A stretch of 64,000 bases of DNA, from assembly GCF_009728735.1 (NCBI RefSeq), contig NZ_CP024636.1, forward strand, positions 3,866,504 to 3,930,503, given 5' to 3'. The notes under the pieces are model-generated. The model had not been told where the DNA came from and ran no database searches. It saw only the letters and a program-made list of their open reading frames with translations. The position numbers and the translations under genes are program-made. The DNA is from Pantoea phytobeneficialis (GTDB taxonomy: Bacteria > Pseudomonadota > Gammaproteobacteria > Enterobacterales > Enterobacteriaceae). Shown in pieces: positions 30,245 through 34,417 of the stretch (the first letter of the stretch is position 1; the number at the start of each line of letters is the position of its first letter).

Positions 30245-31762
30245 TTATTGTTGGATCATCTCTGGATTAACAAACTGCCACAGCAGCTCGAACAAATCAG
30301 TGGCCAGCATACCGCGTGTACCGCGCTGGCGGGCAACGGCGTCCGCTGCTGCACCATGCGCCACGCAGCCTGCACAGGCCGCATCAAACAGGGCCAGTTT
30401 TTGGCCCATCAGCGCGGCAATAATGCCGCTTAATATATCGCCCATACCGCCAGAGGCCATACCGGCATTGCCAACATCGCTGATGACCAGGTTTCCCTGG
30501 TCATCAGCGATCACCGTACCCGCCCCTTTCAACACCACGACGCCACCGTAGCGTTTGACCAATGTCTGGGCGGCATGGATGCGGTCGCTCTCAATTTCGC
30601 TGGTCTTGACGCCCAGCAGACGCGCCGCTTCGCCGGGATGTGGCGTAATGATGCGATTCTGACGGTAATCCGCATTGATTGCCAGCAGGTTGAGCGCATC
30701 CGCATCCCAAAGCATCGGCTTTTCGCAGGCTACAACCGTTTTCAGCGCCTGTTTACCCCAATCGCGCTGGCCCAAGCCTGGGCCAATGGCAATCACATCC
30801 GCCCATTCCAACGCCTGCTGTAGCCGTTCTTCGACCAGCGCATCCACCATCAGTTCCGGTCGGGCGGTCAGGATTGGCGCGATATTATCTTCATGCGTCA
30901 GCACGCGCACAAGCCCTGCCCCGGCACGCAATGCTGCTTCTGCCGTCATGCGAATCGCGCCCGCCGTTCCCCGATCCCCGCCAACCACCAGTAAACGACC
31001 ATGATCGCCCTTATGCGAGGTGGCTTTACGCGGCTTCAGCCAACGAGAGAGGTCCTGAGCATCAACACGCTGCATCGGTGCCGGGTTACCCGCAAGAAAG
31101 ACCGACAGCCCCAGCTCATCGACATGCAATTGCCCGATATAATCACGCGCTTTGCCGGTAAGTTGTCCGGGTTTCAACACAATCATGCTTAAGGTATGCG
31201 CGGCCAGCATAGTCGCCCCCGGCGCCGTACCGTTGGCTGCCGCCAGCCCTGAAGGCATGTCGATTGCCAGCACCGGTGCCGCATGAGCATTGGCGAGCGT
31301 AATCAGATGGTCATAAGGTGCAGCAGGCGCACGGTTCAGCCCGGTGCCGAGCAGAGCATCAATGATCACCTCAACCTGTTCCGGCCAGCAGGCATCGGCT
31401 GCATGAATCACTCCGCCTGCCGCCAGCCATGCTTCACGCGCTTGCTGCGCTTCTTCCGGTAGCGGTTTGCTGCCTTCACACGCCAGCAGCGTGACCGTGA
31501 TGCCTGCCGCTTGCGCCAGTCGCGCCACCACATATCCATCGCCGCCGTTGTTGCCGTGCCCGCAGAGAACCAACCAGTGACTGGCTTCAGGCCATAAGCG
31601 ACGTGCCAGTTCATAGCTGGCCTGCCCGGCGCGCTGCATCAGTTCATACAGGGTCAGTCCCAGGCTGTCGGCGGCATCGCGCTCCAGTTTTCCTATCGCC
31701 TGCGCAGGCCAGACAGAGTGTGATAAACTGCGCGTGTTAGCGTTCAATTCCTGGTTTCTCAT
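30245..31762 (-). CDS. nnr: Nnr (YjeF), bifunctional NAD(P)H-hydrate epimerase / ADP-dependent dehydratase
   Basis: 505 residues (E. coli 515). Repairs hydrated NADH and NADPH. The N-terminal YjeF_N epimerase domain (about 15-215) holds LVLCGHGNNGGDGYVVARLA. The C-terminal ribokinase-like dehydratase (about 225-500) holds HKGDHGRLLVVGGDRGTAGA, ITPHPGEAARLLG and NAGMASGGMGDILSGIIAAL. Its ATG (31762-31760) overlaps the queG ATG (31761-31763) on the other strand within the tetranucleotide CATG. It therefore has no separate upstream region. Confidence 0.95.
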   Translation of the reverse strand: MRNQELNANTRSLSHSVWPAQAIGKLERDAADSLGLTLYELMQRAGQASYELARRLWPEASHWLVLCGHGNNGGDGYVVARLAQAAGITVTLLACEGSKPLPEEAQQAREAWLAAGGVIHAADACWPEQVEVIIDALLGTGLNRAPAAPYDHLITLANAHAAPVLAIDMPSGLAAANGTAPGATMLAAHTLSMIVLKPGQLTGKARDYIGQLHVDELGLSVFLAGNPAPMQRVDAQDLSRWLKPRKATSHKGDHGRLLVVGGDRGTAGAIRMTAEAALRAGAGLVRVLTHEDNIAPILTARPELMVDALVEERLQQALEWADVIAIGPGLGQRDWGKQALKTVVACEKPMLWDADALNLLAINADYRQNRIITPHPGEAARLLGVKTSEIESDRIHAAQTLVKRYGGVVVLKGAGTVIADDQGNLVISDVGNAGMASGGMGDILSGIIAALMGQKLALFDAACAGCVAHGAAADAVARQRGTRGMLATDLFELLWQFVNPEMIQQ

Positions 31763-32900
31763 GTCATACCCTCTCGATCTTCAACAGCTTGCTCAACAGA
31801 TTAAACTCTGGGGGCGCGAACTCGGCTTCCAGCAAGTCGGTATTTGCGATACCGATCTCAGCCTTGAAGAACCCAGGTTGCAGGCGTGGCTGGATAAACA
31901 ATACCACGGTGAGATGGAGTGGATGGCGCGTCATGGCATGATGCGCGCGCGTCCCCATGAGTTACTACCCGGCACATTGCGGGTGATCAGCGTTCGTATG
32001 AATTACCTGCCGGCCAAAGCGGCCTTCGCCAGCACGCTGAAAAATCCGCAACTGGGTTATGTCAGCCGCTATGCGCTGGGCCGCGATTATCACAAAGTAT
32101 TACGCAATCGACTGAAAAAGCTCGGGGAAAAGATTCAGGAGCAGTGTGGCGAACTGAATTTCCGCCCATTTGTTGATTCCGCCCCGCTGCTGGAACGTCC
32201 ACTGGCAGCCAAAGCAGGCCTGGGCTGGACCGGCAAACATTCACTGATTCTCAACCGTGAAGCGGGTTCGTGGTTTTTCCTCGGCGAGTTGCTGATCGAC
32301 TTGCCGTTGCCAGTAGATACCCCGCAGGAAGAACAGTGTGGCCGTTGTGTCGCCTGTATGACCATCTGCCCGACATCAGCGATTGTCGAGCCGTACACCG
32401 TAGATGCGCGACGTTGTATCTCTTACCTGACCATTGAACTGGAAGGTGCCATCCCGGAAGAGTTTCGCCCGCTGATTGGCAACCGTATCTATGGTTGCGA
32501 CGATTGCCAGTTGATTTGTCCGTGGAACCGCTATGGGCAACTCACCGACGAAGACGATTTTTCACCGCGTGCCGTGCTGCATGCACCACCGCTCACCACG
32601 CTGTTTATGTGGGATGAAGCAAAATTTTTGCGCGTGACTGAAGGGTCGGCCATTCGCCGTATTGGACATCTGCGTTGGTTGCGTAACGTAGCGGTGGCAT
32701 TGGGCAATGCGCCCTGGTCAGAAGAAAATATCGCCGTGTTGCAACAGCGTTCAGGAGAGCATCCCTTGCTGGATGAACATATCGATTGGGCGCTGGCTCA
32801 ACAGCGTGAGAAGCGTGCCGCTCTTAAAGTTGAGGTCCAGCCTGCACAGAAATTGCGTCTGGTACGAGCGATTGAAAAAGGTCTGGCGCGTGATGCGTGA
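31761..32900 (+). CDS. queG: QueG, epoxyqueuosine reductase
   Basis: 379 residues, as in E. coli. Cobalamin-dependent last step of queuosine synthesis in tRNA wobble position 34. Two ferredoxin-type [4Fe-4S] motifs are visible: CGRCVACMTICPTSAI (about 194-209) and CDDCQLICPW (about 244-253). The conserved RPFVDSAPLLERPLAAKAGL lies before them. ATG 31761 gives the E. coli-like MSYPLDLQQLAQ start; the frame is open nine codons upstream. It is divergent from nnr with overlapping start codons, and is followed by the datA-like region. Confidence 0.96.
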   Translation: MSYPLDLQQLAQQIKLWGRELGFQQVGICDTDLSLEEPRLQAWLDKQYHGEMEWMARHGMMRARPHELLPGTLRVISVRMNYLPAKAAFASTLKNPQLGYVSRYALGRDYHKVLRNRLKKLGEKIQEQCGELNFRPFVDSAPLLERPLAAKAGLGWTGKHSLILNREAGSWFFLGELLIDLPLPVDTPQEEQCGRCVACMTICPTSAIVEPYTVDARRCISYLTIELEGAIPEEFRPLIGNRIYGCDDCQLICPWNRYGQLTDEDDFSPRAVLHAPPLTTLFMWDEAKFLRVTEGSAIRRIGHLRWLRNVAVALGNAPWSEENIAVLQQRSGEHPLLDEHIDWALAQQREKRAALKVEVQPAQKLRLVRAIEKGLARDA

Positions 32901-32926: not shown

Positions 32927-33176
32927 TTTTCCACATGCTGTGAATAAAATTATCAAGCCGATTAACGGGATGCCCCGTTATATCGTCCAGTAAGTTTAAC
33001 AACAGTCTGAAACATGAAAAAATAGATTAAAATCAATAAATTATAAATTTATCGTAAACATTTATACATACATTAGGATATAAGCAATCGTCCAGAGCCT
33101 GTGGATAACTCTGTTCAAAACGGTTTTGCATATAGGGTAAAACGCCGTCTGAATGCACCGGGCAGATTGTGGATAA
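32927..33176. promoter_or_regulatory. datA: datA-like locus: four DnaA boxes around an IHF site
   Basis: Four 9-mers fit the DnaA-box consensus TTWTNCACA: TTTTCCACA at 32927-32935 (plus); TTATTCACA at 32939-32947, TTATCCACA at 33100-33108 and TTATCCACA at 33168-33176 (all minus). Between the pairs, AATCAATAAATTA (33031-33043) fits the IHF consensus WATCAANNNNTTR exactly, in an AT-rich stretch. E. coli datA, which binds DnaA and promotes ATP-DnaA hydrolysis with IHF, lies at the same place between queG and the glyVXY tRNAs. A weaker box (TTATACATA) occurs at 33062. No gene lies in this 425-bp gap. Confidence 0.72.
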
Positions 33177-33325
33177 CCTGCTGGCCTATCAAGGCAGCGA
33201 CTGTCGTCAGTTCATCAATTTTTGACTTTGCAGCATTGCGCAAACTTTCCAGAAAACGGTTTGGCTGCCACAGTTTTAGTTTTGCTCGTGACCGAAGACA
33301 AATAACTTAAATGAATATTCAAAAC

Positions 33326-33401
<76 letters not shown>

Positions 33402-33426
33402 GTAGGAGGTACTGCTATACAAATTT

Positions 33427-33502
<76 letters not shown>

Positions 33503-33528
33503 ATAGGAGGTACTGCTGAACCAAATTT

Positions 33529-33604
<76 letters not shown>

Positions 33605-33766: not shown

Positions 33767-34315
33767 TTAAAGCTGCAAAAAATGCTCGCGGTAATACGCC
33801 AGTTCCGCCACGGACTCGCGGATATCATCCAATGCCTGATGGCTGCCGCTTTTTTTGAAGCCTGGCAGGATGTCTGGCTTCCAGCGACGCGCCAACTCTT
33901 TCAGGGTACTGACATCGAGATAACGGTAGTGGAAATAAGCCTCCAGCTCCGGCATATATTTGAACAGGAAGCGACGATCCTGACCGATGCTGTTGCCACA
34001 AATCGGCGAGGTATTAGCAGGCACCCACTGTTGCAAAAATTCGATAGTCGCCAGTTCTGCGGCACGATCGTCAAACTGGCTGGCCTTCACGCGATCCACC
34101 AGACCGCTGTTGGTATGGGTACGCACATTCCAGTCATCCATCAGCGCCAACTGCGCATCGGACTGATGTACCGCCATCACCGGCCCTTCCGCCAGAATAT
34201 TCAGATTGGCATCCGTTACCAGCGTAGCGATCTCAATGATGCGATCGCGTTCTGGATCCAGCCCGGTCATTTCGAGGTCGATCCAAATCAGATTATTTTC
34301 ATTTCCAGCTGTCAT
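33767..34315 (-). CDS. orn: Orn, oligoribonuclease
   Basis: 182 residues (E. coli 181). DEDDh-family exonuclease that degrades RNA di- to pentanucleotides, including pGpG from cyclic-di-GMP turnover; essential in E. coli. First acidic motif [20 protein letters not shown] (about 10-29), then [12 protein letters not shown], and the final [14 protein letters not shown] with catalytic His and Asp. ATG 34315 fits the family start; an ATG at 34345 would add ten unrelated residues. It is divergent from rsgA. Confidence 0.96.
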
Positions 34316-34417
34316 GCATTTTCCGCCCGTTGCCAAAGTCGTCATTACACTAAATTAAGGTGTATCATAGACGTTTTGCCCAGCGGGGCGAAGCCTGGCG
34401 AAAGCGTGAGAGGATGC

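Follow-up and report, generated by a model that had tools for sequence, protein, structure and literature searches.

A probable datA locus between queG and tRNA-Gly genes of a Pantoea-like bacterium and the spacing that it shares with other enteric bacteria

Introduction

The datA locus of E. coli is the closest described system to the element that we report here. Passages of PMC5742627 and PMC10950094 describe its DnaA boxes 2, 3, and 7 and its IHF site as essential and its box 4 as stimulatory. As set out in parts of the same two papers and of PMC5835720 and PMC10380432, the essential boxes share one orientation, and box 1, which overlaps the tRNA terminator, is dispensable. In E. coli, these sources report, IHF-bent DNA brings DnaA on boxes 2 and 3 together and the bound ATP is hydrolyzed, so that datA acts as a switch that inactivates the initiator protein DnaA. 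According to excerpts of PMC10950094, read-through from the tRNA-Gly operon governs the dissociation of IHF from datA in E. coli. datA lies ∼10% of the E. coli chromosome from oriC (84.6 to 94.6 min), and DARS2 lies ∼21% from oriC on the other replichore, as given in part of PMC4585315.

Here, we describe an element between queG and three tRNA-Gly genes in the window, i.e., the whole stretch of 64,000 nucleotides that was analyzed. The element is itself of an already known kind, datA, and we compare it with its E. coli counterpart, with queG loci of other enteric bacteria and with those of other families.

Results

The first-pass annotation had described four DnaA boxes in two pairs around an exact IHF consensus, in AT-rich DNA with no gene and at a position like that of E. 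coli datA. All of this was borne out. The sites lie where they had been placed (Table 1). The 425-bp gap between the end of queG and the first tRNA-Gly gene has a GC content of 35% compared to 54% for the window and contains no known gene, and the order of queG, three tRNA-Gly genes, and orn matches that of E. coli MG1655 (nnr, queG, three tRNA-Gly, orn, rsgA, psd). Besides queG and orn, nnr and psd were confirmed in the window by NCBIfam, and the genes for both IHF subunits, ihfA and ihfB, are present above the cut-off. Short ORFs extend into the gap, one of which (33101-33310) lies entirely inside it; an Rfam scan found only the three tRNAs above threshold and no match in the gap itself.

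Table 1. The predicted datA element and its neighbors, in coordinates of the window.
Feature	Coordinates	Strand	Basis and remarks
queG (epoxyqueuosine reductase)	31761..32900	+	NCBIfam TIGR00276, 508 bits; ORF; left neighbor, reads towards the element
DnaA box 4 counterpart, TTTTCCACA (E. coli TCATCCACA)	32927..32935	+	TTWTNCACA match
DnaA box 3 counterpart, TTATTCACA (same letters in E. coli)	32939..32947	-	TTWTNCACA match
Predicted IHF-binding-site counterpart, AATCAATAAATTA	33031..33043	+	Exact consensus WATCARNNNNTTR
DnaA box 2 counterpart, TTATCCACA	33100..33108	-	TTWTNCACA match
DnaA box 7 counterpart, TTTTGAACA, 1 misfit (E. coli TTGTAAACA, 2 misfits)	33112..33120	-	12 bp from box 2, orientation as box 2
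DnaA box 1 counterpart, TTATCCACA (E. coli ATATCCACA)	33168..33176	-	TTWTNCACA match
Three tRNA-Gly(GCC) genes, glyV-X-Y counterpart	33326..33604	-	Rfam; reading towards the element
orn (oligoribonuclease)	33767..34345	-	NCBIfam NF003765, 304 bits; right neighbor

The motif TTWTNCACA has four matches on the two strands of the window, all within 32927-33176. By datA criteria, box 2 (TTATCCACA) and box 3 (TTATTCACA), which share the minus strand, are the high-affinity pair. Boxes 4 and 3 face each other, and boxes 3, 2, 7, and 1 share one orientation. A simple promoter and terminator scan, which carries little weight, gave no clear promoter and no intrinsic terminator in the stretch from the tRNAs to box 1. 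Shortly past queG, at 32963-32980, lies a 7-bp inverted repeat (TAACGGG-ATGC-CCCGTTA) with no T run behind it, as judged by eye.

For the comparison with E. coli, box labels were assigned from the descriptions in passages of PMC5742627, PMC10950094, PMC5835720, and PMC10380432. We infer that the two-misfit TTGTAAACA is the published box 7, which is described in parts of PMC5835720 and PMC5742627 as next to box 2 and as sharing the directionality. Read from queG, the MG1655 series is TCATCCACA(+), TTATTCACA(-), the IHF site TATCAATAGGTTA, TTATCCACA(-), TTGTAAACA(-), and ATATCCACA(-) at 0, 12, 105, 174, 186, and 241; in the window, TTTTCCACA, TTATTCACA, AATCAATAAATTA, TTATCCACA, TTTTGAACA, and TTATCCACA follow one another at 0, 12, 104, 173, 185, and 241. 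The steps from box 4 to box 3, box 3 to IHF, IHF to box 2, box 2 to box 7, and box 2 to box 1 are 12, 92, 69, 12, and 68 bp in the window and 12, 93, 69, 12, and 67 bp in E. coli. The two loci thus agree in their neighbors (queG, three tRNA-Gly genes, and orn), in the order and orientation of boxes 4, 3, 2, 7, and 1 and the IHF site, and, within 1 bp, in each step. They differ in that boxes 4, 1, and 7 of the window are nearer the consensus and in that about half of the spacer letters have changed (39/83 identical between box 3 and IHF, 26/56 between IHF and box 2); the identity of the box 2-box 7 unit is 19/21. Moreover, the tRNA-Gly genes begin ∼18 bp from box 1 in E. coli and 149 bp from it in the window (33177-33325). 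By the same measure, this distance is 66-76 bp in four relatives (L003, L007, L101, and L102) and 160 bp in L103.

The clustering of the boxes, and not their number, sets the locus apart from chance. The total of TTWTNCACA in the window is not enriched, with four seen and 4.5 expected in shuffles. However, four boxes in one 250-bp stretch occurred in 0/300 dinucleotide shuffles of the window, and four boxes in the AT-rich gap occurred in none of 20,000 local shuffles, in which the largest number was three. The score for E. coli-like geometry is 4 in the gap, and none of 20,000 gap shuffles exceeded 2. The exact IHF consensus WATCARNNNNTTR is present five times in the window (3.3 expected) and alone is not rare, appearing in 1,660 of 20,000 gap shuffles (∼8%); it therefore counts solely through its position. 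The whole 5.7-Mb genome has 57 copies of the perfect box TTATCCACA, and the full list, read by eye, has two of them within 250 bp at just two places, this locus and the mutH-rppH gap. This survey was built on the 57 perfect boxes and not on the 385 places from the first box search.

We examined 69 (53 and then 16 more) of 80 named queG loci, leaving out L054, L061, L065, L066, L067, L069, L070, L074, L075, L077, and L081. The enteric comparison comprises 42 loci, i.e., 40 named loci, the window, and MG1655, with boxes 2 and 3 as selection criteria. The box 3/box 2 pair, sought at 150-175 bp, is present in 42/42 loci at 159-165 bp, and at exactly 161 bp in 27 of them. A search at 80-105 bp from box 3 placed the best IHF-like site 91-95 bp from this box, and 68-71 bp from box 2, in all 42. 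It has 0, 1, 2, or 3 mismatches in 19, 17, 4, and 2 loci, respectively, i.e., at most one in 36/42; in two Pantoea relatives, it has one. Box 7 has one misfit in 15 loci, two in 25, and three in two. Box 4 varies, with at most one misfit in 18/42 loci and at least three in 18/42; its 9-mer TTTTCCACA is common to 5/5 Pantoea rows of this comparison, the window counted. For box 1, the range searched was 55-85 bp from box 2, and no more than one misfit was present in 31/42. The part kept throughout the family is thus box 3, the IHF site, box 2, and box 7, while boxes 4 and 1 come and go.

For element statistics, 11 of 99 pattern matches were set aside as other loci. When the IHF site was sought freely on both strands of the remaining 88 elements (at most one mismatch), 52 had a single best site at 91-95 bp from box 3 and 11 had one elsewhere; 19 had tied sites, and six had none. 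Column statistics are based on the 58 of 88 elements with 170 bp, of which 48 remained once near-duplicates were removed. Box 7 played no part in the selection; its columns average 1.6 bits in these 48, with 2.0 bits for each letter of TGTT, and the CTC between box 7 and box 2 averages 1.7 bits. The spacer from IHF to box 2 is nearly free (0.31 bits), and that from box 3 to IHF is more conserved (0.83 bits). Within the latter, ∼20-75 bp after box 3, the enteric family has a conserved block (TTG-n4-TCAA, CAAGnGATC, TAACATTTTGAAAT), which is largely replaced in the window (32948-33030). We know of no name for this block, which may in part serve as a weak contact for DnaA or IHF.

These comparisons revise the first-pass annotation. 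It had held that box number and spacing differ from those of E. coli and that the element may be a minimal core of datA; however, spacing is the same within 1 bp at each step, box 7, the counterpart of an essential E. coli box, had been overlooked, and each of E. coli boxes 1-4 and 7, like the IHF site, is matched by a counterpart in the window. The conservation among relatives that it proposed to check is borne out for box 3, the IHF position, box 2, and their spacing (42/42) and for box 7, and boxes 4 and 1 are variable; the IHF site has 2-3 mismatches in 6/42 loci and is thus not strictly conserved.

tRNA-Gly genes lie downstream of the element in 30 of the 40 named enteric loci; they read towards it in 30/30, as in E. 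coli and in the window, and begin within 150 bp of box 2 in 25. Eight of the 40 (L011, L021, L030, L032, L034, L035, L038, and L039) have no tRNA-Gly in ∼2.8 kb and yet keep the datA geometry; in the other two, the contig ends too soon for this check. Because the core is kept in these eight loci, control by tRNA read-through is unlikely to be universal.

We also searched 295 genomes of the GTDB family for the pattern TGTGNRTAA-N143..165-TGTGGATAA irrespective of position. It is present in 192/295 genomes and occurs once in the genome of the window. By size, as counted from the table, it is present in 187/194 genomes of at least 2.5 Mb and in 5/101 smaller ones. A control with the gap shifted by 24 bp (167-189) matched 18/295, so that chance may account for part of the 192, and the reversed pattern matched four by our count. 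The matches were counted as a whole, and some clearly belong to other loci, e.g., a tandem repeat in G404; most of them, not all, should be datA. Among the seven larger genomes that were missed, three, all of one genus, carry the element next to queG at a spacing of 164 bp, with one misfit in box 3; two have no QueG match, one has queG without a box cluster, and in the last the QueG match is partial and boxes are absent. In a wider sample of the order, 61/295 genomes matched, including 20/23 within the family, in which the three misses are genomes of 1.0-1.2 Mb; the 41 matches outside the family were not checked singly, and several look like other loci.

On the 4,332,738-bp contig C1, oriC is near 4,317,950, as placed from mnmG at 4,318,323 and a box at 4317950 together with sequence inspection; dif is at 2,153,264, and the two are 50% apart. 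The element lies 418.5 kb from oriC, i.e., 9.66% of the 4.33-Mb C1 if the contig is taken as a whole circle, compared to ∼10% for datA in E. coli. The mutH-rppH gap (L171 1215-1342; C1:2,749,214-2,749,341), the sole other close pair of perfect boxes, is likely the DARS2 of this genome. Assuming that C1 is one correct circle, this pair shares its replichore with datA and is separated from oriC by 36% of the chromosome.

Outside the family, we sought QueG in 30 genomes and obtained 23 matches, 22 of which were testable downstream since one gene runs off its contig. A box cluster follows queG in 4/22 of these genomes. Two of the four, each from a different family, show the box 3/box 2 arrangement of enteric bacteria at 165 and 161 bp, with box 2 followed by CTCTGT and no exact IHF consensus. 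The other two belong to a third family, presumably Vibrionaceae, and have a Vibrio-type element. The remaining 18 loci have no TTWTNCACA within 700 bp. Likewise, eight named queG loci, from Pseudidiomarina, Bowmanella, Oceanimonas, Pseudoalteromonas, Alteromonas, Moritella, Shewanella, and Psychromonas, have no TTWTNCACA.

In 21/21 named Vibrionaceae loci (L041-L079), a box A on the minus strand comes after queG and precedes, by 48 bp, a box 4 that reads TTARNCACA. In the same 21 loci, an IHF-like site lies 100-104 bp after box 4 (at most two mismatches, sought at 96-107 bp), and a facing box lies 18-19 bp before box 2, behind which comes (C/G)TCTGT. A box 3 with no more than one misfit is present in only five of the 21. 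This cluster thus shares with the window its place downstream of queG and the succession of box 4, IHF-like site, and box 2 followed by TCTGT; in the seven loci scanned for it, tRNA-Gly is also present further downstream. It differs in the extra box before box 4, the facing box, a box 3 that is mostly more than one misfit from the consensus, and a distance of 125-129 bp from IHF to box 2. The Vibrionaceae box 4/box 2 pattern is present in 187/197 genomes of the third family above, presumably Vibrionaceae, and the reversed pattern in 13 by our count; some pattern matches are other loci. Our literature searches returned no description of datA, or of a stretched queG-linked form, in Vibrio, although one could exist beyond the papers reached. 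An RctB site of V. cholerae is likened to datA in part of PMC3937223.

The arms on the two sides of the IHF site differ by a similar length in both groups. In 21/21 Vibrionaceae loci, the distance from box A to IHF (148-152 bp) exceeds that from IHF to box 2 (125-129 bp) by 22-24 bp, and the enteric arms (91-95 versus 68-71 bp) differ by 22-25 bp. Enteric arm lengths correlate (Spearman 0.64, kinship uncorrected; 71 elements with IHF at 84-100 bp and at most one mismatch). In a set of 77 Vibrionaceae elements (73 distinct), from which six of 83 stretches below the score cut had been dropped, an IHF-like site (at most two mismatches) lies 99-104 bp after box 4 in 70, and the other arm mostly moves along, from 99/122-124 to 104/129, with one element at 100/131. 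The 48-bp box is present in this set by selection and is free of selection only in the count of the 21 named loci. Among the seven exceptions, L060 and L214 list no site there, and L153, L154, L196, L197, and L221, from one Vibrionaceae group, break the rule at 90/124. In these five, the arm from box 4 to IHF is about one helical turn shorter (90 versus ∼101 bp), with the other arm nearly unchanged. Relaxing the motif and widening the choice of sites abolishes the Vibrionaceae correlation (0.05, p 0.66). Given this loss and the five loci, we rejected arm-length matching as a firm claim.

Discussion

Synteny, the order, orientation, and spacing of its sites, its recurrence at 42/42 enteric loci, and its distance from oriC support the element in the window as an orthologue of E. 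coli datA. We consider it highly probable (about 0.92) that it is the datA locus of this Pantoea-like bacterium, where it would act by IHF-bent juxtaposition of DnaA and ATP hydrolysis. IHF-dependent hydrolysis of DnaA-bound ATP would be its most likely function. We suggest that ATP-DnaA would line up head to tail on the two high-affinity boxes, 2 and 3, and that the low-affinity box 7 would extend box 2. Bound between boxes 3 and 2, IHF would bend the 161-bp segment, bringing DnaA on box 2 into contact with DnaA on box 3. The DnaA oligomer would then hydrolyze ATP and release ADP-DnaA, so that replication is not restarted too early. At ∼420 kb from oriC, datA would be duplicated soon after initiation. 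We infer binding, bending, hydrolysis, and timing at this element from its likeness to E. coli datA.

Alternatively, the locus could act by titration only, soaking up DnaA with IHF as an aid to binding and without ATP hydrolysis. Titration was the role in which datA was first described, passages of PMC5835720 also report direct titration in E. coli, and boxes 4 and 1 of the window are nearer the consensus than those of E. coli. Titration, however, depends on the number and strength of boxes and requires neither a spacing of 159-165 bp nor a weak box 7 kept beside box 2, and we regard it as unlikely. Less likely still is that the cluster mainly blocks transcriptional read-through from the tRNA-Gly operon or queG, with replication control as a secondary effect. 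The convergent queG and tRNA genes that flank the site and the absence of an intrinsic terminator in our scan from the tRNAs to box 1 fit such a role, as does a statement in part of PMC10950094 that glyV-X-Y read-through reaches datA in E. coli and is lowered by box 2. Yet a roadblock would need no IHF-centered spacing, and the geometry is kept in the 8/38 testable named enteric loci that have no tRNA-Gly in ∼2.8 kb downstream.

Nor does the layout fit a site that recharges DnaA, a reading to which we give very little credence, even though DARS2 also combines DnaA boxes with an IHF site and acts on the nucleotide state of DnaA (PMC8682772, in part). According to passages of the same paper, boxes I and II of the DARS core must be opposed; here, boxes 3, 2, 7, and 1 are co-oriented. 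DARS2 also differs in carrying Fis sites and in performing the opposite reaction. DARS2 sits at the mutH promoter, as stated in part of PMC5835720, whereas the element has queG and tRNA-Gly as neighbors. Judged by the described layout, the element thus lacks the three-box DARS2 core with opposed boxes I and II at the mutH promoter, although its boxes 4 and 3 do face each other; its place is that of datA, and the mutH-rppH gap is the better DARS2 candidate. Finally, a chance cluster of motifs in AT-rich DNA might be invoked because the box total of the window equals the chance expectation; with four boxes in 0/20,000 local shuffles and the geometry in 42/42 enteric loci, its probability is negligible.

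Beyond this locus, the stretched Vibrionaceae form is the part of the wider pattern most worth following. Bacillus subtilis and Streptomyces coelicolor have DnaA box clusters that, to our knowledge, are unrelated to datA in position and layout. In passages of PMC5742627, these clusters, which repress untimely initiation, are called analogous to datA. With enteric bacteria and Vibrionaceae, the similarities described above hint, tentatively and with the odds somewhat against it, that datA may be an old distance-locked DNA machine common to both. It could have been stretched in Vibrionaceae, with box A in place of box 3, the arms of the IHF hairpin matched by evolution, and the block in the box 3 arm binding a further factor.

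Having returned to datA as the preferred reading of the element in the window, we note that conservation shows what selection keeps, i.e., box 3, the IHF site, the box 2-box 7 unit, and their spacing, and not boxes 4 and 1 or the adjacency of tRNA-Gly. The natural variants offer tests of the proposed IHF loop and of control by tRNA read-through. Altogether, these comparisons suggest that DnaA inactivation by a DNA site may be general in enteric bacteria, and possibly in Vibrionaceae, rather than a peculiarity of E. coli.
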